Shown here: positions 5,006 to 47,616 of the stretch, piece after piece | Layout: each line of letters opens with the position of its first letter | Numbering within the stretch: position 1 is the first letter of the stretch | Assembly: GCA_019637335.1 (NCBI GenBank) | Contig: JAHBVV010000019.1 | Location: forward strand, 64,391-128,390 | Source of the DNA: Candidatus Hydrogenedentota bacterium | GTDB taxonomy: Bacteria; Hydrogenedentota; Hydrogenedentia; Hydrogenedentales; JAEUWI01 | Direction: 5' to 3' | Length of the DNA: 64,000 nucleotides | Notes under the pieces: model-generated | What the model was told of the DNA's origin: nothing | Seen by the model: only the letters and a program-made list of their open reading frames with translations | Databases searched by the model: none | Program-made: the position numbers and the translations under genes

Positions 5006-6649
5006 ATGGGAACCCGAATACACCTGTATGCCCTGCCGGGGCTGCCGATCCGTCTTGAGGATCTGACGCCCCAACCCCTGCTGGCCCGTTGCGCGGGGGC
5101 CTTATCGGCGCGGGGCCACGTCGCGCGCATCTACGACGCGGGGTCGCTGGCTTGCCTGGATCAACCGGAGACGCGTGCGCTCGCGCATATGATCGCGGAG
5201 AGCGGGGCGGGGCCCTGGCCGCGCCATTTTCCGGGGGGATTGGGCCGCATCGCCCGTGCGCTCCGCCAGCACCGTGCGGCTCGGGTGCGGCGCGTGGTGG
5301 CGGAGGAATGCGAACGCCCGTGCCCGGCCGTGATCGTGATTCAGATCGGGCGCCAGAAGGACGTTCCGGAGGCCCGGGCGCTTGCGGCGGCCTTGCGCGA
5401 GCGCCGTCCACAATCCGTGATCGTGGTGGTGGGCGCCTTCGTAAACGCCTTTGCGCGGCCATTGCTGGCCGCCGCGGGCGAATTCGACGCCGCTTGCACC
5501 GGGCCGGCGGAGTCGGTGCTGGCGGGCCTGGTCCGGTCGCGCCGGGATCGTTCCAGCTGGGACCGAATTCCGGGGCTCGTGTATCGGCGCGGTGCGTCGG
5601 TCGCCGCTGGATCGGCGCGCATGCGGCCGCTGGAGCCGGACTTCGCGCCAGCCGCCTACCATCCGCGGGTGTATCCCGCGCTCCTGCACGCGGGCAAGAT
5701 CAAGCTGTTTACACTGCAGCACAGCACCGGCTTGCGCCATGCGGGCCACTATCGCGGCGAATGGGCGCGGCGGCCGGTGCACGTGCGCGAGGCGCGGCAG
5801 TTGCGCGCCGAGATGCTCTACCTCTTTGAACTGTACGGCGCGCGCGCCTTTCACATCGCCGGCCCCCATACACCGCGCGAGGCCGCCCTCGAACTGGCGC
5901 ACGAGTGCGCCACGCTTCCCTTCGAACTCGTGTACGCCCGTGACGGCCACGTTCTGGAGACGGATGGCGAGCTGCTCCGCGCGCTCGTCCGCTCGGGGTG
6001 CCGTGTAATTCGATTCGGCTTGTTGACGGGAAGCCAGCGCCTTTTGTCGGATTACTACGGGGAGGACTGGACCGTCAGCGAGGTCGAGGCCTGCATGCGT
6101 ATGTGCCGGGCGCACGGAATGCGCCGCCACGTCTCGTTTGTATACCCGTGCCCGGAAGACGACCGCCACACCGCCGCGGAGACGATCCGGATGATTCAAC
6201 GCTGCCAGCCCGACAGCGCGTGCTTCTCGCTGCCCGAGCTCGCGCCCGGCAGCGTCTGGTTTCAGCATGCGCGGGCCTGCGGCTTCGGCATGCCCGGGGG
6301 GCGCCTGGCTCGTTGGGTGGGGGGGCATGGCGTTGCCGCGGAAGTGGCGGGCCGGCCGCCGGTTCGCCCCTTCACGATGCGGGGCCTCTGGGGACGCGCC
6401 CTGGCGCAGCAGATTCGGTCGTTGTCCTCGGAAATTGAACGCCGCGGAATCCCCATCGAATCGGGTGGCGCGTCGTGTCTGCTGTCGGAAGTCGACCCGG
6501 GCGCAAGCGGCCTGGGCGGCCTGCTCGCGCGGCTTGACCTGGACCCGCTCCATGCTACTATTGACTCCTACAACGGCCGGGCCACGGCCTCCATCGACAC
6601 ACTGGATCTTTCCCCGCCGGCACGGATGCGGGAAGCGGTAGGGAACTGA
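5006..6649 (+). CDS. B12-binding/radical-SAM-like protein lacking the cluster cysteines
   Basis: The 547-residue protein has the layout of the cobalamin-binding-domain radical SAM group. An N-terminal Rossmann-like region of about 170 residues is followed by a TIM-barrel-like part with LYGARAFHIAGPHTPREAALE and VIRFGLLTGSQ. The position where the family carries CxxxCxxC has Thr241, His245 and His248 with exactly the same 3- and 2-residue spacings (motif HSTGLRHAGHY). A normal [4Fe-4S]-SAM cluster is therefore not expected. The N-terminal domain also lacks an obvious DxHxxG cobalamin motif. The gene ends 7 bases before the ketosynthase-like gene, so the two are probably co-transcribed. Function is unknown: it may be a scaffold, or an enzyme using another cofactor. 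ATG 5006 was chosen because a purine-rich GGGGAAGG lies upstream. Confidence 0.6.
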   Translation: MGTRIHLYALPGLPIRLEDLTPQPLLARCAGALSARGHVARIYDAGSLACLDQPETRALAHMIAESGAGPWPRHFPGGLGRIARALRQHRAARVRRVVAEECERPCPAVIVIQIGRQKDVPEARALAAALRERRPQSVIVVVGAFVNAFARPLLAAAGEFDAACTGPAESVLAGLVRSRRDRSSWDRIPGLVYRRGASVAAGSARMRPLEPDFAPAAYHPRVYPALLHAGKIKLFTLQHSTGLRHAGHYRGEWARRPVHVREARQLRAEMLYLFELYGARAFHIAGPHTPREAALELAHECATLPFELVYARDGHVLETDGELLRALVRSGCRVIRFGLLTGSQRLLSDYYGEDWTVSEVEACMRMCRAHGMRRHVSFVYPCPEDDRHTAAETIRMIQRCQPDSACFSLPELAPGSVWFQHARACGFGMPGGRLARWVGGHGVAAEVAGRPPVRPFTMRGLWGRALAQQIRSLSSEIERRGIPIESGGASCLLSEVDPGASGLGGLLARLDLDPLHATIDSYNGRATASIDTLDLSPPARMREAVGN

Positions 6650-6656
6650 GCGCGCC

Positions 6657-7901
6657 ATGGAAGTAAACGCAGTCGTTATCACGGGGATGGGGGTCCTGTC
6701 CTGCAATGGCATAGGCCGGGAAGCGTACTGGGATGCGATTGCGTCCGGACAATCGGGGATCCGGCGGATAAAGCGCTTTGACGCCTCGGACTTGCCCTGC
6801 CAGATCGCGGGGGAGCTGTGGGACTTCAATCCCGAAGATTTCATGAAAAAGAACGTGGTCCGCAACTGGAACCGGCACGTGCACCAGGCGATTGCCTCTT
6901 CGAGGCTGGCGGTACAGGACGCGAACCTCAAGGGCGCGGGCTACGATCCGGAACGGATCGCCGTGGCGATGGGGACGAGTATCGGGTCGCCCGACGAGGC
7001 GTACCGCGGGCACATGGAGGCGATGGAGAGCGCGGGGTACAAGAAGATCAACAAACTCGCCTCCTCGGCGTTTTCCGGACACTCGGCCACGGTGCACGTC
7101 TCCATTGATATTGGCGTCCGCGGCCCCGCGATTACCATTGCGAGCGGCTGCGCGACGGGGCTGGACGTGTTGAACTGGGGATACAACCAGATCCGGCTGG
7201 GCCAGGTGGACGCGGCGGTCGTGGGCGCGACGGAATCCCCCATTTTTCCGCTATCGCTGGCGTCCGCGTGCTCGCTGGGCATACTGTCGAAGCGCAACGA
7301 TGATCCGGCGGGCGCCATGCGCCCCTTCGACCGGCACCGCGACGGGATCGTGTTGAGCGAGGGCGCCTGCACGCTGGTGCTCGAGCGCGCGGACCGGGCC
7401 CGGGCGCGCGGCGCGCACATTTTCGCGGAAGTTGCCGGCACGGGGTCGGCGGCGGAGGGCCAGAATCCGCTGATGCTGGAGGCCGAGGGGAAGACGCTGG
7501 CGCGGGCGATCGAGACCGCGATTTCCAGCGCGGGGATCAACCGCTACGACATAGGCTGCATACAGGCCCACGGGGTGTCGCTGGACATGTACGACCGCTG
7601 CGAGACCAACGCGTACAAGCGGGTCTTCGGCGAGCAGGCGTACCGGATACCCGTAAGCGCGGTGAAATCGATGATCGGCCAGTCCTATTCCACGGGCGGG
7701 CTGATGGGCGTGGGGGCGGCGCTCCTGACCCTGGAGCGCGGGATTCTCTCGCCGACGTTGAACCTCGAGGACCCCGATCCCCTGTGCGACCTGGACTTCG
7801 TCCCCAACCGCGCCCGCCTCAACGACATCGACACGGCGCTCGTGGTTTCCATCAGTTTCGGGGGCACGCACTGCGCCTCCGTCCTGCGTAAGGTTGCCTG
7901 A
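6657..7901 (+). CDS. Beta-ketoacyl synthase (FabF-like) with altered active-site triad
   Basis: The 414-residue protein is a full-length thiolase-fold ketosynthase of the FabF/KAS I-II type. The nucleophile is Cys165 in ASGCATGLD. The first histidine is His305 in IQAHGVS and the lysine is Lys337. The second catalytic histidine, normally in a KSMTGH motif, is Gln342 here (KSMIGQSYSTGG). In this family the Cys-His-His set drives acyl transfer, decarboxylation and condensation, so the change may alter decarboxylation or substrate range. It lies between the radical-SAM-like gene and the first sensor kinase, with 2 bases between its stop and the next start. It could make a specialised lipid or polyketide. 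It is unlikely to be the housekeeping FabF, but that is inference. Confidence 0.85.
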   Translation: MEVNAVVITGMGVLSCNGIGREAYWDAIASGQSGIRRIKRFDASDLPCQIAGELWDFNPEDFMKKNVVRNWNRHVHQAIASSRLAVQDANLKGAGYDPERIAVAMGTSIGSPDEAYRGHMEAMESAGYKKINKLASSAFSGHSATVHVSIDIGVRGPAITIASGCATGLDVLNWGYNQIRLGQVDAAVVGATESPIFPLSLASACSLGILSKRNDDPAGAMRPFDRHRDGIVLSEGACTLVLERADRARARGAHIFAEVAGTGSAAEGQNPLMLEAEGKTLARAIETAISSAGINRYDIGCIQAHGVSLDMYDRCETNAYKRVFGEQAYRIPVSAVKSMIGQSYSTGGLMGVGAALLTLERGILSPTLNLEDPDPLCDLDFVPNRARLNDIDTALVVSISFGGTHCASVLRKVA

Positions 7902-7903
7902 AC

Positions 7904-10420
7904 GTGCCCGCGCATTCCTTCATCATAACCTCCTCCCTGCTGGTGCTGGCGGCGCTTTCGAGCTGCCTGATGGGGCTGGTGGTCTTGATGCGGAATCCCG
8001 AGCGCATAACGCACCGCGTCTTCGCGCTGCTCGCGTTCAACCTGAGCGTGTGGTCGATGGGCGTGTTCCTCATTGTCCACTCCCAGAGCGAAGAGACCGC
8101 GCGGCTGTGGATCATGGCGACGTTCGCGGTGGCCAGTTTTCTTCCCGCGACCTTTTACCATTTTATTGGCTATTTCCCGGACCAACGATTCCGCGGGATG
8201 GCGTGGTACCTCTACCTGCTCTACGGGATGGCCTTTGGCCTGACCGCGCTCGTCAACACGCGCTGGTACATTAAATCCCTCACCTTCGTTCCGGGAGATG
8301 TTCCCAAGGCGACCTACGGGATCGTATTTGAAGTGTACGGCGTCATGCTGGTGGCGACGATGGTGTTGATGTTCGCCAACCTGTTCCGGAAGCTCCGGAA
8401 ATCCGAGGGCATACAGCGGCGGCAAATCGAACACGTCCTGGCGTCCATATTCGCGGGCGTGGGCCTCGCCTCGGCCACGAACGTCATCGCGCCCGCGGTC
8501 TTCGATATCGACAACACGCAACTCTACGGCCCGTGCTTCATGGTGCTGATGATGGCGGGGCTGGCCTACACCATGGTCCGCTACCACCTGCTGGATATCT
8601 GGCTTGTCATCTCGCGCACCACGGCCCACGTGGTGGTGACCTGCATCATCTTCCTGATGTATTTCTCCGTGGTGACGCTGACGCACGCCGCATTCATCCA
8701 GGCGGGCCCGGAGTACACCATTCTCAGCATCGCGCTGACGTCCATGCTGGTGGCGGTGGTCATCCAGCCGCTGCGCGAGCGGGCGCAACTCGTGCTCGAT
8801 CGGGTGATCCGGCACCGCCGCTACGACGCGGAGGCGCTGACCCAGCGGATCGTCCGCGTATCGAATAAGTACGTCCAGCTCGACCAGATTATGGATCGCG
8901 TATCGGTCGATCTGCGCCAGACCATGGGCGTGACCGGGTTCCGGCTGCTCCTGGCGGACCGGGATCGCGGCCCGGAGTTGCACACGGCGTTCGTCTCCGG
9001 GGCGGTGAGCGGGGAAATCGAACAGCCCCTGGATTTCGTGCTGGAGTATGTCGGCGCGCATCACGAGCCCCTGCTCCTCGAAGAACTCGAGCACCGCGCG
9101 CCAAACCCGCATACCGTCCTGCTCGCGCGGCAGCTGCGGGAGCTTGGCGCCCTGGTGCTGATGCCGCTGGTGACGCAATCGGGCGTGCTCGGGATGGCCC
9201 TGCTTGCCGAGAAAGACACCAGAGAGCCCTATACCCTGGAGGACTGGCGGGTCTTCAACACGATCGCCGGGTCGCTCGCGGCGGCGGTGGAAAACGCGCG
9301 GCTGTATACCGAGCTCGAAGAGCTGAACGGCCACCTCGAGCTCATTCTCCGCAACATGCGCGGCAGCGTCATCGCGGTCGACAACAAGGGCGTGATCAAC
9401 ACGATCAACCAGGAAGGCCGGTCCATGCTGGGGCCGGTGGTCCCCGGGATGACCCTGGATGTGCTGGACACAAAGGTCGCCCGGCTGCTCCAGATGACGC
9501 TGGACAACAAGCGCGATATCCTCGACGTGGAGACGACGATTATCAATGGCGTGGGCGAGGAGATGCCCGTGGCCATGTCTACTTCCTGCCTGGAACTGCC
9601 GGGCCAAGGGATGAAGGGGGCGATGGTGCTGATCCACAACATGACGCAGATCAAGCGCCTGGAATCGAACGTGCAGCGCGCGGACCGGCTGACGTCGATC
9701 GGCACCATGGCGTCCGGGATGGCGCACGAGATCAAGAATCCGCTCCAGTCGATTAAGACGTTTACGCAGCTCCTGCTCGACCGCTTCGACGACGCGGACT
9801 TCCGGAAAACCTTTGCGGAGGTGGTCCCGCCGGAGGTGGACCGGATAGACAGTATTGTGACTCGGCTGCTTCATTTTGCGCGCCCCAAGCCCGTCTCCTT
9901 CCAGCTTCACGACCTGCGCGGCATTATCAAGAACGTATTTGCGCTGGTGCGGAATCAGCTCCGAAAGGAGGGCATTCACCCCGATCTGGATCTTCCAGAG
10001 GACAACGTGGATGTGATGGCGGACGACCAGCAATTGCATCAGGTGTTCCTGAACCTGGTGTTGAACGCGATCGAGGCGTTGTCCGACGCCCATAATCCGG
10101 TGATTGAGGTTCGCGTGTGGACGGGGCACGGGCGGCTGCAGCAGCGGGGTACGGGCCTGCGCCACGAAGTGCCCTGCGTGCGGGCCACAATCCGGGACAA
10201 CGGGTGCGGGATTACGCGCGACCACATGAAACAGCTCTTTACTCCGTTCTTCACCACGAAAAGCGACGGAAGCGGACTCGGCCTTTCCGTCGTTCACGGC
10301 ATAGTAACGGAGCATCAGGGCGTGATCGATGTCACCAGCACCCCGGGGGCGGGATCGTCCTTTACCGTCACGCTGCCGCTCGCCGGCAGCATGGAGACGA
10401 TTGAAAGGGTTGGCTTATGA
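7904..10420 (+). CDS. Seven-TM-type sensor histidine kinase with GAF and PAS
   Basis: The 838-residue protein starts at GTG 7904, 2 bases after the ketosynthase stop, with AAGG 10 bases before it. The first about 290 residues contain seven or more hydrophobic helices, like the 7TM N-terminal region of histidine kinases. A GAF-like domain (about 310-460) and a PAS-like domain (about 465-570) follow. The HisKA box GMAHEIKNPLQSIKTF carries phospho-acceptor His608. The ATP-binding domain shows the N box (LNLVLNAIEAL), DNGCGI, FTPFFTTK and GSGLGLS. All catalytic elements look intact. It overlaps the next gene by 4 bases (ATGA) and probably feeds the response regulator at 12311. Confidence 0.92.
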   Translation: MPAHSFIITSSLLVLAALSSCLMGLVVLMRNPERITHRVFALLAFNLSVWSMGVFLIVHSQSEETARLWIMATFAVASFLPATFYHFIGYFPDQRFRGMAWYLYLLYGMAFGLTALVNTRWYIKSLTFVPGDVPKATYGIVFEVYGVMLVATMVLMFANLFRKLRKSEGIQRRQIEHVLASIFAGVGLASATNVIAPAVFDIDNTQLYGPCFMVLMMAGLAYTMVRYHLLDIWLVISRTTAHVVVTCIIFLMYFSVVTLTHAAFIQAGPEYTILSIALTSMLVAVVIQPLRERAQLVLDRVIRHRRYDAEALTQRIVRVSNKYVQLDQIMDRVSVDLRQTMGVTGFRLLLADRDRGPELHTAFVSGAVSGEIEQPLDFVLEYVGAHHEPLLLEELEHRAPNPHTVLLARQLRELGALVLMPLVTQSGVLGMALLAEKDTREPYTLEDWRVFNTIAGSLAAAVENARLYTELEELNGHLELILRNMRGSVIAVDNKGVINTINQEGRSMLGPVVPGMTLDVLDTKVARLLQMTLDNKRDILDVETTIINGVGEEMPVAMSTSCLELPGQGMKGAMVLIHNMTQIKRLESNVQRADRLTSIGTMASGMAHEIKNPLQSIKTFTQLLLDRFDDADFRKTFAEVVPPEVDRIDSIVTRLLHFARPKPVSFQLHDLRGIIKNVFALVRNQLRKEGIHPDLDLPEDNVDVMADDQQLHQVFLNLVLNAIEALSDAHNPVIEVRVWTGHGRLQQRGTGLRHEVPCVRATIRDNGCGITRDHMKQLFTPFFTTKSDGSGLGLSVVHGIVTEHQGVIDVTSTPGAGSSFTVTLPLAGSMETIERVGL

Positions 10421-12333
10421 ACGTGCTCCTGGTCATTGCGGAGGACCGGGGCGTCTGGGAAGCCTTGCGGGCATCCCTTCCGGAGGGCGACCTGGTGCTG
10501 CACGAGCTCGACGTGGCCACGGCGCGCCGCCGCATCGCATCCGTGAACGTTGACGCGATATTTCTGGACGACACCTCGCTCTCGGGGGAGAATCTGGTCG
10601 AGGCGGTGAAGGACATGGCGCCGGGCATCCCGCTGGCGGTGCTTTCGAACCGGGAGGACCTGCTGACGCAGGCGGCGCTGACCCGTTCCGGGGCGAACGC
10701 GGTGCTGACGAAACCGTTTTCCTGCGAATCGCTTCAGGAGGCGCTGGCCTCGCTGCTCCACACGACCTACATTGCGGCGGGCGCGTCGCAGCCGGTGGAC
10801 GTGCCCGCGTTGCCCGGCGCGTCGCTCGGCCAGCACCAGATGGCGCTGCGCTGGATCAGCCGCCTCACGAACTGCAAGGCCGATTTGGAACGGCTGGCCC
10901 ACCGGCTGATGGAGGGCGCGGTCGACATTTTTGACGCCACGCGCTGCTGCCTGCTGCTGGAGCGGGAAGGCCAGGTTGCGGTGGCGGCTTCGCACGGGCT
11001 CAGCGACCACATTACGGGCCAGTTGCGACTCTCGTTCAGCCAGGGCTTGATGCACTGGTTCGACAGCCACGCCTGCCTGTTCGACATCATGGCGATCCGG
11101 TCGGCCCCGGAGGCCATTAAGGAGTTGCAGGTGCTGAACGGGATTCTGGCCGCGCCACTTATGCGGGACGGCCAGGTCTTTGGCGCGCTGGTGCTGGGCG
11201 ACAAGGCGTCCGGCCTTTCCTACGTGCAGGAAGAGCGCGAGCTGCTGTCACTTTTTGTCCGATCCGTTGAGATACTCTTTGAAGACGTCTACGGGCGAAA
11301 CCGGCCCGGCTACCAGGGCCCTGCGCAGCTCATGGCGAGCGATCTGCCCGTGGGGATGGTGGAAATCTCTCCGGAGCGGAAGGTGGTGGCGATGAACCGG
11401 CGCGCGGAGGCGCTTCTACAGCTGCCCGCGACGAAGGTGGTAGGTTCGAGCGTCCAGCGGCTCGGCTCGGCCTTCGCCGACGTGGTGCTCCGCAGCATTG
11501 CGCGGAACGAGCCGCGTTACCACGAAGTCATCCGCGATCCGGTGACGAACGGCCAGCTGAGCATCAACGTGGCTCCGGGCGACGCGGGCGGGGCGATGGT
11601 GGCGTTTCTGCCGCAGACCGAGGAGCGCGTTTCTCAAGAGGAAATCGCCTACAGCCCGTTCTGGGAGTACCTCGCCACGCGCGTGGCGCAGGAAATTAAA
11701 AATCCGATGGTCGCGATCAACACCTTCGCGCAACTGCTGCCGCGGAAGTACGATTCCGAGGACTTTCGGGACGCCTTCAGCCGGGTGGTGCAGCAGGAGG
11801 TGGAGCGGATCAACCGGGTGGTGGAGACGCTCTTCGAGTTTGCCCGTAACCCGAGCCTGCGCCTGCAGCAGTGCGACGTGAACGACACGGTGCGATCGGT
11901 GCTCGCTTCGTTCGAGTCGGAGCTTGCGCGCCATGCGATCAAGTTGGATCAATCGTATGATCCCGAAGTCCTGCAGACGGAGCTGGATCCCGTTTTCATC
12001 AAGCAGGCGGTGCACAACGTCGTGCAGAACTCGATCGAGGCCATGCCCGCCGGGGGCACGATTCAGGTGCGCACGGCGCGCCGGGACAAATCGATCGAGA
12101 TCCGGATATCGGATTCCGGCCCCGGCGTTTCCAAGGAAGATTCCGACCTGATCTTCCTGCCGTTCTACAGTACGAAAGAGCAGGGTATGGGCCTGGGACT
12201 GACCATCGCCAACCGCATCCTGCACCAGCACCAGGGCGCCATACGCTGGGTCACCGACGAGAAGGAGGGCAACTATTTTGCGCTCCAGATACCCACGACG
12301 GAGCTAAGCCATGCAAACGATCCTGGCCATTGA
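10417..12333 (+). CDS. Receiver-GAF-PAS histidine-kinase-like protein with Gln at the phospho-acceptor site
   Basis: The 638-residue protein begins with a receiver-like domain of about 120 residues: a candidate Asp in DAIFLDD and Lys in LTKPFS are retained. A GAF-like domain (about 150-290) and a PAS-like segment (about 305-400) follow. The dimerisation helix reads RVAQEIKNPMVAINTFAQLL: the histidine of the usual HEIKNP is Gln425. The ATP-binding domain keeps VVQNSIEAM, DSGPGVS, FLPFYSTK and GMGLGL. It should therefore bind ATP but not autophosphorylate at the usual place. It may act as a pseudokinase partner of the kinase encoded just upstream, or as a phosphatase or sensor subunit. It overlaps both neighbours. 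Confidence 0.85.
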   Translation: MNVLLVIAEDRGVWEALRASLPEGDLVLHELDVATARRRIASVNVDAIFLDDTSLSGENLVEAVKDMAPGIPLAVLSNREDLLTQAALTRSGANAVLTKPFSCESLQEALASLLHTTYIAAGASQPVDVPALPGASLGQHQMALRWISRLTNCKADLERLAHRLMEGAVDIFDATRCCLLLEREGQVAVAASHGLSDHITGQLRLSFSQGLMHWFDSHACLFDIMAIRSAPEAIKELQVLNGILAAPLMRDGQVFGALVLGDKASGLSYVQEERELLSLFVRSVEILFEDVYGRNRPGYQGPAQLMASDLPVGMVEISPERKVVAMNRRAEALLQLPATKVVGSSVQRLGSAFADVVLRSIARNEPRYHEVIRDPVTNGQLSINVAPGDAGGAMVAFLPQTEERVSQEEIAYSPFWEYLATRVAQEIKNPMVAINTFAQLLPRKYDSEDFRDAFSRVVQQEVERINRVVETLFEFARNPSLRLQQCDVNDTVRSVLASFESELARHAIKLDQSYDPEVLQTELDPVFIKQAVHNVVQNSIEAMPAGGTIQVRTARRDKSIEIRISDSGPGVSKEDSDLIFLPFYSTKEQGMGLGLTIANRILHQHQGAIRWVTDEKEGNYFALQIPTTELSHANDPGH

Positions 12334-13696
12334 CGACGAGCTGAGCATTCGCGAATCGTACCGGATGATCCTGGGCGACGACTACCGGGTTCATGTCGCG
12401 GAGGATGGCGAAGCCGCGCTGGAAGTGCTCTCGGAAAAGCATGTGGACCTGATTCTCCTGGATCTGACCATGCCGCGGATGAGCGGCATGGACTTTCTAG
12501 AGCGGCTGGAGGAGCGCGGCGAGACGGTTCCCGTGATTATCGTCACCGGGTCGAACACGGTGGATATCGCCGTGCGCGCAATCAAGAAGGGGGCGCGCGA
12601 GTTCGTGATCAAGCCCTTCGATCTGGACGACCTCCTCGCCCTGGTGGAGCGCACGCTGGAGGAATTGCGCGAAAAGCGCGAGCTCTCCACGCTCCGCGAG
12701 CAGGGCACGGCCGGCTTCGACAACATCATCGGGAACGCGCCCGCGCTCATGGAGGCCCTGGCCAAGGCGCGCCAGGCGATGGACGTCGATTCGACCGTGC
12801 TCATTACCGGCGAGACCGGAACCGGCAAGGACGTGCTCGCGCGGGCCATCCATTTCGGCGGCGGGCGCAAGGACAAGCCCTTTGTTCCCCTGTCGTGCTG
12901 CGCCATTCCCGCGAACCTGGTGGAGAGCGAGTTGTTCGGGCTTACCCGCGGCGCCTTCACCGGGGCCACCGAAAGCCGCATCGGCAAGATGCAGGTGGCC
13001 GACGGCGGTTCACTGTTTCTCGACGAGATCGGCGAGATGCCCGTGGAGGCCCAATCAAAGCTCCTGCGGGTGCTGCAGGAAGGCACCTTCTACGCCGTGG
13101 GCGGCAACCGCGAGATTGAAGTGGACGTGCGCTTCATCTGCGCCACGAACCGGCCCTTCGACCGCGCCATCGCCGAGGGCCTGTTCCGCCAGGACCTGTA
13201 CTACCGTATCAACGTGCTGCCGATCACCATGCCGCCCCTGCGCAAGCGCCGCGAGGATATCCCCCAGCTCGTGGCGCACTTCGTGGCCAAGCACGGGCCG
13301 CGCGTAAACTCGCGGGTCCAGGATTTCGAGCCCCGCGCGCTGTCCCGCCTGGCGGCGTGCCAGTGGCCCGGGAACATCCGGGAGCTCGAGAACACGGTGG
13401 AGCGGATCCTCGTGTGCCACAGCAGCGAGCGGGTCATTCGCGCGGAGTTTCTGAACGGCATCGTTGCCGCGGAGGGAGGCGTCGAGGTCAGCGGCCTGGA
13501 GGACTTCGCGGGTCTGCCGTTGCAGGAGGCGACGCAGCGCCTGGAGCGGCACCTGATCAAGAAAGCCCTTGAACAGTGTAATTACGTGCAATCCCAGGCC
13601 GCCGACGCGCTCGGCACCACGCGCCGCATCCTGAAATACAAGATGGACCAGCTCGGCATCACCGACGATCACGACAAACATTCGATAGCGAGTTAG
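12311..13696 (+). CDS. NtrC-family sigma-54-dependent response regulator
   Basis: The 461-residue protein has the three standard parts. The receiver domain (1-120) has phospho-acceptor Asp51 (LILLDLTMP) and Lys101. The AAA+ domain has Walker A GETGTGKD at 167-174, GAFTGA at 214-219 for contact with sigma-54, and a Walker B-like LFLDEIGEM at 235. The C-terminal Fis-type helix-turn-helix is in EQCNYVQSQAADALGTTRRILKYK form. It starts inside the previous gene (23-base overlap), forming a kinase/pseudokinase/regulator cassette. The targets are unknown. A sigma-54 factor must exist elsewhere in the genome. It is followed by a long repeat region, so it probably ends the operon. Confidence 0.95.
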   Translation: MQTILAIDDELSIRESYRMILGDDYRVHVAEDGEAALEVLSEKHVDLILLDLTMPRMSGMDFLERLEERGETVPVIIVTGSNTVDIAVRAIKKGAREFVIKPFDLDDLLALVERTLEELREKRELSTLREQGTAGFDNIIGNAPALMEALAKARQAMDVDSTVLITGETGTGKDVLARAIHFGGGRKDKPFVPLSCCAIPANLVESELFGLTRGAFTGATESRIGKMQVADGGSLFLDEIGEMPVEAQSKLLRVLQEGTFYAVGGNREIEVDVRFICATNRPFDRAIAEGLFRQDLYYRINVLPITMPPLRKRREDIPQLVAHFVAKHGPRVNSRVQDFEPRALSRLAACQWPGNIRELENTVERILVCHSSERVIRAEFLNGIVAAEGGVEVSGLEDFAGLPLQEATQRLERHLIKKALEQCNYVQSQAADALGTTRRILKYKMDQLGITDDHDKHSIAS

Positions 13697-39615: not shown

Positions 39616-43268
<3,653 letters not shown>

Positions 43269-45240: not shown

Positions 45241-47616
45241 ATGAACTTCGCCGAGTTGCCTGGAATTCGACCCTCGTCTATATCAATGGCGCTATGCTGG
45301 CTGTTGATCGTCTGCGGGGCGGGCGCTCCCAACGCGGCCGCGCAACTCTATGACCCGGTGCAGACTGTTGAAAATGGGGTTGATGGCGTAACCGGACTGG
45401 AAGGCCCCAACCGTATCGCCTTGTCGCCGGATGGCGCGTTCGCCTACGTCGCCTGCTCGTTCTCAAACGCCGTGGCCGCGTTCTCGCGCAATCCCACCAC
45501 GGGAGAGCTTTCTTTCCTGGAGGTACACGTGGATGGCGAGAATGGCGTGGATGGGCTCGAAGGGGCCGAAAGCGTCACCATTTCACCCGACGGGATGCAC
45601 CTTTACGTCGCGTCAAGGACAGACGATGCCGTAGCGCTTTTTGCCCGCGATGCGGAGACGGGGCAGTTGACGTTTGTCGAAGCGTACTTCGATGATCAGG
45701 ATGGTGTCGCCGGACTCAATTTCGTCTTTGCGGTGGTTGTGTCGCCGGACGGCGCCCATGTCTATACGGCGGCGCTGCTCGACCGCTCTATTGCTGTCTT
45801 CTCGCGGAACGCAAGTACCGGCGCGCTGTCCTTCATTGAGGCGCATGTGGACGGCCAGAATGGCGTTGACGGCCTGGACAGCGTCCTGTCAGTCGCCGTA
45901 TCGCCGGACGGCGCCCATGTCTACAGCGCGGCCCAGGGGGACAATGCGTTGGCGGTCTTCTCGCGCGACGGCGTCTCCGGCCAATTAAGTTTCGTCGAGG
46001 TCCATGTTGACGGGGAAGACGGCGTAGAGGGGCTGGAGGGCGCGCGATCCGTCGCGGTCTCGCCCGATGGGGCGCATGTGTATGCTACGGGTCCAAAGGA
46101 GACGGGCGTTGCCGTGTTTTCCCGGGATGCCTCCAGCGGCGCGCTGGCCTTTATCGAGGCGGCCTTCAATGGCGGCGCCACTGAAGTTACGGGCCTCCTG
46201 AACCCGCACAGCGTGACGGTATCGCCCGATGGCGCGATTGTGTTTGCGGCTTCCGGTGTTTCGCAAAGCACGTTCGCACGCGATATCGAAACCGGTACGC
46301 TGGTGTATCTCGGTGGCATTACGGAAGCTCCGGACAGCCAGTTCACGCTTCTCGGGGCCTTTGAAGCGACCGTCTCCTCCGATAGCCGATTCCTCTACCT
46401 CGGCGCCTCCCAGGCCGAGGCGGTGCAGGTGTTCCGAGTAGATGCCGACCGTCCGTCCGTAACGATCAGCCGGGCTCCCACCCAGGCGGACCCGACCAAT
46501 ACCGCGCCGCTGGAATTCGACATTGTTTTCTCCGAGCCGGTTACGGGCTTCGTAGCCAGTGACCTGCTCATCGAAGGCGCCGGCTCGGTCTCGGATTTGA
46601 GTCTGATTGACGTGGATGGTGAAGTCTTTGCGCTCACGATCGCGTCCCTGGACGGCGACGGAGCGATCGCGGTGTCGGCGCCCGCGGGCGTGGCGCTCGA
46701 CGCCGCGGGCAATCCAAACCTTGCCTCCGTGGGGCTTGATAACACCATAACAATAGATACGACGCCGCCGGTGATCAGTGTGACCAGCCCGGAATTGACC
46801 ACCGTCGTACAAGGCGAAACGTTCACGGATCCTGGTGCGACGGCCGTGGATGCTCTTGATGGCGCCGTAATCGTTACGGTGGGCGGAGATACGGTGGACG
46901 CAAGCGCCTCGGTCGGAACGGAGTTCGTCATAACCTACGATGCCGTGGACAGCCTCGGCAACAGCTCGCAGGCCACGCGTATCATTACCGTTGTGGGGGT
47001 CGGCGCCGAGGGAGAAGGCGAGGGAGAAGGAGAAGGAGAAGGAGAAGGCGAAGGCGAGGGCGAGGGCGAAGGTGAAGGAGAAGGAGAAGGAGAAGGAGAA
47101 GGAGAAGGAGAAGGAGAAGGAGAAGGAGAAGGAGAAGGAGAAGGCGAAGGCGAAGGAGAAGGCGAAGGCGAAGGTGAAGGCGAAGGTGAAGGTGAAGGCG
47201 AAGGTGAAGGTGAAGGTGAAGGTGAAGGCGAGGGCGAGGGCGAGGGCGAGGGTGAAGGCGAGGGCGAAGGCGAAGGAGAAGGTGAAGGTGAAGGTGAAGA
47301 GGACTTGGCAACCATTGCCCAGACGTTGCTTGATGGCTTTGGAGCGGGCGATGCCGACAGTGACGGTCAACTGACACTCGACGAGGCGCGCGACATTTTC
47401 TCGCCGCTGACGGACAGCCAGTTTTCAGCTTTGGACAGCAATAACGACGGCGCATTGAGCGCTGCCGAGCTGCAAGCGGCCATTGGTGGTCCGACTGGCT
47501 GCGCTTGCCCGCAGGCCGGCGCCAAGGGCCTGCGCGATTCCCTGGGTGACCTGTTCCTGCTGGGTATTGGCCTGTTGGCGTTGCTGGTCTTGCGTGGCGA
47601 TACGGCCATAGAATAG
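45241..47616 (+). CDS. Secreted beta-propeller protein with Ig-like domains, Glu-Gly linker, EF-hands and C-terminal sorting-like tail
   Basis: The 791-residue protein starts at ATG 45241, with AGGA 6 bases before it, and has a signal peptide to about residue 35. Residues 45-400 are six or seven propeller blades of about 51 residues with the phrase SVAVSPDGAHVY and acidic loops HVDGENGVDGLEG. They resemble lactonase/YVTN propellers. Ig-like domains follow (about 405-510 and 512-586). Residues 590-687 are Glu-Gly repeats. EF-hands lie at 704-715 (DADSDGQLTLDE) and 732-743 (DSNNDGALSAAE). The end has GCACPQ (Cys754, Cys756), a short hydrophobic helix at about 771-785 and one Arg. The tail suggests membrane transfer and processing; that is inference. 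Confidence 0.85.
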   Translation: MNFAELPGIRPSSISMALCWLLIVCGAGAPNAAAQLYDPVQTVENGVDGVTGLEGPNRIALSPDGAFAYVACSFSNAVAAFSRNPTTGELSFLEVHVDGENGVDGLEGAESVTISPDGMHLYVASRTDDAVALFARDAETGQLTFVEAYFDDQDGVAGLNFVFAVVVSPDGAHVYTAALLDRSIAVFSRNASTGALSFIEAHVDGQNGVDGLDSVLSVAVSPDGAHVYSAAQGDNALAVFSRDGVSGQLSFVEVHVDGEDGVEGLEGARSVAVSPDGAHVYATGPKETGVAVFSRDASSGALAFIEAAFNGGATEVTGLLNPHSVTVSPDGAIVFAASGVSQSTFARDIETGTLVYLGGITEAPDSQFTLLGAFEATVSSDSRFLYLGASQAEAVQVFRVDADRPSVTISRAPTQADPTNTAPLEFDIVFSEPVTGFVASDLLIEGAGSVSDLSLIDVDGEVFALTIASLDGDGAIAVSAPAGVALDAAGNPNLASVGLDNTITIDTTPPVISVTSPELTTVVQGETFTDPGATAVDALDGAVIVTVGGDTVDASASVGTEFVITYDAVDSLGNSSQATRIITVVGVGAEGEGEGEGEGEGEGEGEGEGEGEGEGEGEGEGEGEGEGEGEGEGEGEGEGEGEGEGEGEGEGEGEGEGEGEGEGEGEGEGEGEGEGEGEGEGEGEGEEDLATIAQTLLDGFGAGDADSDGQLTLDEARDIFSPLTDSQFSALDSNNDGALSAAELQAAIGGPTGCACPQAGAKGLRDSLGDLFLLGIGLLALLVLRGDTAIE
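47008..47302 (+). repeat. 6-base microsatellite encoding the Glu-Gly linker
   Basis: About 49 units of GAAGGA/GAGGGC/GAAGGC/GAAGGT type encode an uninterrupted Glu-Gly run. Both strands are open in several frames, which produces Ser-Pro and Leu-rich shadow frames. The third-base variation between Gly codons suggests selection to keep the peptide while limiting slippage. Confidence 0.95.

Follow-up and report, generated by a model that had tools for sequence, protein, structure and literature searches.

Cobalamin-dependent radical-SAM methyltransferases such as TsrM, TokK and CysS, together with their relatives AprD4, BchE, HpnJ and ApyD, share with the protein studied here both the domain order, a B12-type Rossmann domain (putative here) followed by a TIM barrel, and the predicted fold. 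Compared to the TsrM/TokK/CysS group, however, this protein, encoded in a 64,000-nucleotide stretch of a Candidatus Hydrogenedentota genome (the window, meaning the whole stretch analysed), lacks CxxxCxxC as well as the VESGS Glu and possesses a new DDxHT motif and an AVGN tail. A radical-SAM fold without the cysteine motif is also present in the 'pseudo-rSAM' proteins of peptide-modification systems (e.g. NCBIfam TIGR04150). These belong to another subgroup and another context than the window protein, and TIGR04150 was not among its NCBIfam matches. Cysteine-less radical-SAM-like proteins are already known elsewhere, so that the kind itself is not new. In the open papers searched, nothing relevant was found on radical-SAM pseudoenzymes or on Hydrogenedentota radical SAM proteins, nor any description of a near-universal, phylum-specific B12-type family with graded losses.

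The Radical_SAM match to the window protein (Pfam PF04055, residues 253-396) is sub-threshold, its 24.2 bits not reaching the gathering score of 29.5, and the NCBIfam matches (ApyD, HpnJ, BchE) are weak. An AlphaFold2 model built from a 25-sequence alignment (the window protein and 24 relatives) reached a pLDDT of 88.8 and a pTM of 0.90, and Foldseek placed TsrM on top of the PDB matches (E 3e-19, TM 0.65), followed by AprD4, CysS, MgmA and TokK; a cysteine-bearing relative, modelled in the same way, gave the same set of fold matches. The window protein is thus predicted to combine a radical-SAM (beta/alpha) barrel with a B12-type domain, in agreement with an earlier note on this DNA, which had held the fold to be preserved on both sides of the motif. 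The SAM-site motifs are degenerate, AGP standing for GGE after strand 2 and LLTGS for VESGS (FFGxES in outgroups). All features are collected in the table.

Table. Features of the locus, in window coordinates
Feature	Position	Strand	Basis
Cluster-less B12-binding/radical-SAM-fold protein, 547 aa	5006..6649	+	ORF, Pfam, model, fold search
B12-binding-like Rossmann region, residues 101-175	5306..5530	+	Pfam PF02310 E 6e-5, below cut-off; model and fold search
HSTGLRHAGHY, residues 239-249, degenerate cluster loop; Cys columns 243/247/250 are L/G/R; HxxH at 245/248	5720..5752	+	alignment
LLTGSQRLLSDYY, residues 339-351; S343 and Q344 invariant in 59/59 rows	6020..6058	+	alignment
VYPCPEDDRHTAAETIRMIQ, residues 379-398; D386, H388 and E392 in 50/50 cluster-less rows	6140..6199	+	alignment
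C-terminal AVGN-stop tail; peptide conserved, codons vary	6635..6649	+	alignment
KAS-II (FabF)-like synthase; Cys165-His305-Gln342 for Cys-His-His	6657..7901	+	sequence
7TM-GAF histidine kinase of conserved operon	7904..10420	+	
REC-like/GAF histidine kinase of conserved operon	10417..12333	+	
Sigma-54 response regulator of conserved operon	12311..13696	+	

CxxxCxxC is absent from the window protein on inspection of its sequence and likewise from its three genus relatives (3/3), all of which share GxxHxGHY; since these come from independent assemblies (L032-L034), the missing motif is not a sequencing error. The earlier note had read HSTGLRHAGHY as lying exactly where the family has CxxxCxxC, with Thr241, His245 and His248 in the cysteine positions. 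The stretch is there and the motif is not, but the register is off by two residues. In the 59-row alignment that sets the cysteine columns, which includes nine relatives keeping SRGCxxxCxxC, the motif-bearing rows run S240-R241-G242-C243-xxx-C247-xx-C250, and the window protein has L243, G247 and R250. Its Thr241 sits in the column of the SRGC Arg, H245 lies two residues past the first cysteine column and H248 one residue past the second, both beside cysteine columns. Column-for-column replacement of Cys by Thr/His/His is ruled out by this alignment, and the TxxxHxxH spacing is a coincidence of the two-residue slip, because the three residues fall outside the cysteine columns. A His at 248 is already found in the cysteine-bearing L045 (SHGCDFTCHGC). 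Among the 12 rows set around the window's subclade, no loop position but G242 is better conserved than H245 and H248, each present in 9 rows, against 2-5 for the other columns of 243-250, so that a role for HxxH within this subclade is plausible. Outside it, HxxH is missing in most cluster-less rows, and about 19 of the 50 have lost part of the loop; HxxH is no general replacement for the cysteines.

Nearly every Hydrogenedentota genome keeps a single copy of the gene: a profile search finds the family in 67 of the order's 68 genomes, and in all 38 of those of good quality, although the weakest matches may be other B12 radical-SAM proteins. A contig search with closer alignment rows (A2) returned 26 loci, nearly all from Hydrogenedentota, and a single-protein scan of the genome contigs returned no match. 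Among 58 Hydrogenedentota proteins, 45 carry none of the three cysteines, five carry one, none carries two and eight carry all three. Each of the five full-length orthologues outside the phylum (L148-L152) has the canonical CxxxCxxC, and in four of them (L148, L149, L150 and L152, the last listed together with L081) the KAS, kinases and regulator are adjacent; L151 is canonical and lacks the KAS/kinase module. These four same-operon orthologues show full-length homology and the same five-gene order, but differ from the window protein in keeping SRGCxxxCxxC and FFGxES and in having no tail. With the motif intact in every one of these other-phylum orthologues, mostly within the same operon, the cluster is ancestral and the change is a loss. 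The earlier note had counted homologues with CxxxCxxC in the aligned columns as evidence against its reading; they exist, in eight Hydrogenedentota and in all other-phylum orthologues examined, and point to loss from a canonical ancestor and not to a misreading. With the motif columns left out of the rSAM tree, the loss takes 3 changes, and an independent KAS tree gives 3-4 changes of cysteine state, a single change being found in 0% of 200 bootstraps. As a best estimate from these trees, the cluster would have been lost about three times.

The rSAM-like gene opens a five-gene unit (5006-13696) of rSAM-like protein, KAS, two histidine kinases and sigma-54 regulator that is common to Hydrogenedentota and other phyla. 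All readable Hydrogenedentota copies of the KAS-II-like synthase, like L081/L152, have a Cys-His-Gln triad, and L148-L150 have Cys-His-Asn; either triad is unusual for the FabF family. With respect to INDEPENDENCE from the module, families f11 (17 genomes) and f7 (4) as well as genomes G007 and G029 were without KAS and first kinase at the thresholds used, and most of them have the rSAM-like gene. Because this gene stays where KAS and first kinase are absent, the cluster-less protein is not only a KAS partner, and an obligate partnership is unlikely, the protein being retained in f11 and f7. No consistent replacement neighbour was seen at the module-less loci. In four module-less loci (L038, L069, L073 and L074) the gene beside the rSAM-like one appears, by eye, to encode a PfkB-like sugar kinase, which may be chance. 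Elsewhere in the window lie a long array of 37 copies of a 9-base repeat (42919-43253), another of 48 copies of a 6-base repeat (47011-47299), and a near-perfect 45-base tandem repeat of 3.8 copies with 99% matches (1273-1443).

Loss of the cysteines is accompanied by conservation elsewhere in the barrel, S343, Q344, P381, D386, H388 and E392 being present in 50/50 cluster-less rows. Hydrogenedentota copies, including those bearing the cysteines, carry GSQRLL, YPxPxDDxHTxAET and the tail, whereas the outgroups have FFGxES, YPAPFETxxT and no tail; the FFGxES Glu is lost in nearly all Hydrogenedentota copies and kept in L054, L057 and L074. Most rows end in AVGN or AVAN, with differing codons and whatever gene lies downstream. 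The idea that the tail merely reflects the ribosome-binding site of KAS was rejected, since the codons vary and the tail persists without KAS downstream. As cysteine-bearing Hydrogenedentota copies also carry the new features and outgroups do not, these features probably came first; in the simplest order of events, the stem would have acquired a new function and the cluster, no longer needed, would then have been lost repeatedly. Close cluster-less pairs have a dN/dS of 0.09-0.18, compared to 0.13-0.15 for cysteine-bearing pairs and 0.03-0.11 for the adjacent KAS. Given these values, the cluster-less copies are clearly constrained, under purifying selection. The earlier note had suggested a pseudo-enzyme or a different cofactor. 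The cysteine-less barrel is a lineage trait under such selection, and loss of ancestral catalytic residues in a gene that selection retains would fit a pseudoenzyme, or else a new function; the one-for-one replacement by Thr/His/His does not hold, and a different cofactor is possible, with HxxH confined to the window's subclade.

Our preferred reading, with moderate confidence, is that a cobalamin-binding radical-SAM enzyme gave rise to the window protein, which has been neofunctionalised and no longer does radical chemistry. As relatives in other phyla show, the ancestor was canonical and opened the operon, with the KAS-II-like synthase, both histidine kinases and the sigma-54 regulator downstream of it. 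In the Hydrogenedentota stem, the far half of the barrel acquired two conserved motifs that make up a new site (GSQRLLxDxYG, YPxPxDDxHTxAETxR) and the AVGN tail was added at the C-terminus; nearly all copies lost the VESGS Glu. With a new job that did not need SAM cleavage, the [4Fe-4S]-binding loop may then have decayed about three times, as the trees suggest; strongly supported (starred) branches alone, in the rSAM and KAS trees, force only one change of state, which weighs against this part. As to the mode of action, we infer a ligand-binding or a scaffolding or regulatory role through the barrel pocket, without radical chemistry and perhaps still with cobalamin; where the two-component system is present, the protein may regulate or scaffold near it, the pocket serving for binding.

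Conserved barrel residues could, however, also mean a new catalytic activity, and the main rival is a new non-radical enzyme in which H283, C382, D385/D386, H388, E392 and the subclade HxxH build a novel active site that might bind metal. D386, H388 and E392 are without exception in the cluster-less rows, H283 and C382 are each found in 36/50 of these rows against 1/9 of the cysteine-bearing ones, and each His of HxxH in 9/12 of the subclade. DDxH is present in cysteine-bearing relatives too, though, most cluster-less rows have no HxxH, and the H283/C382 contrast is inseparable from ancestry, the independent pairs being too few to link these residues to Cys loss; we regard this rival as possible and rather unlikely. 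Less probable still is a cluster-free cobalamin-dependent methyltransferase or B12 carrier or sensor, in which the B12-binding half is kept and the cluster alone is lost. A putative N-terminal B12-type domain is retained (Pfam below cut-off; model) and the top fold match, TsrM, is a B12 radical-SAM methyltransferase, but TsrM itself bears a cluster, going by the title of PDB 6wte, and conservation is highest in the C-terminal half of the barrel. That the protein is still a radical-SAM enzyme, its cluster held by His or other Cys, is highly improbable. In its favour are the 14 Cys that the window protein retains, the near-invariance of C332 and the nearby HxxH. Against it, cysteine-bearing rows have C332 just as often, the cluster-less rows share no new conserved Cys trio, about 19/50 of them miss part of the loop, and Glu340 is lost as well. 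A non-functional, decaying gene, to which the fast divergence relative to the neighbours might point (46% identity to L032 versus 89% for KAS), was already disfavoured and has a close to negligible probability, a pseudogene being ruled out by the low dN/dS and frames intact in 67/68 genomes, next to the invariant residues and tail.

To the broader statement, a phylum-wide B12 radical-SAM family converted to a cluster-free function, with DDxHT, SQRLL and the AVGN tail arising first in cluster-bearing proteins and the Fe-S site then decaying repeatedly, we give an even chance. It is unusual for a radical-SAM protein to have lost its defining cofactor site and still be nearly universal in a phylum, and such proteins should not be annotated as radical-SAM enzymes. 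Cysteine-bearing and cysteine-less orthologues in one order and in the same operon offer a direct test of a radical enzyme's conversion and, if the proposed reading is true, would line up as natural intermediates between a radical enzyme and a non-radical protein, a rare kind of series.
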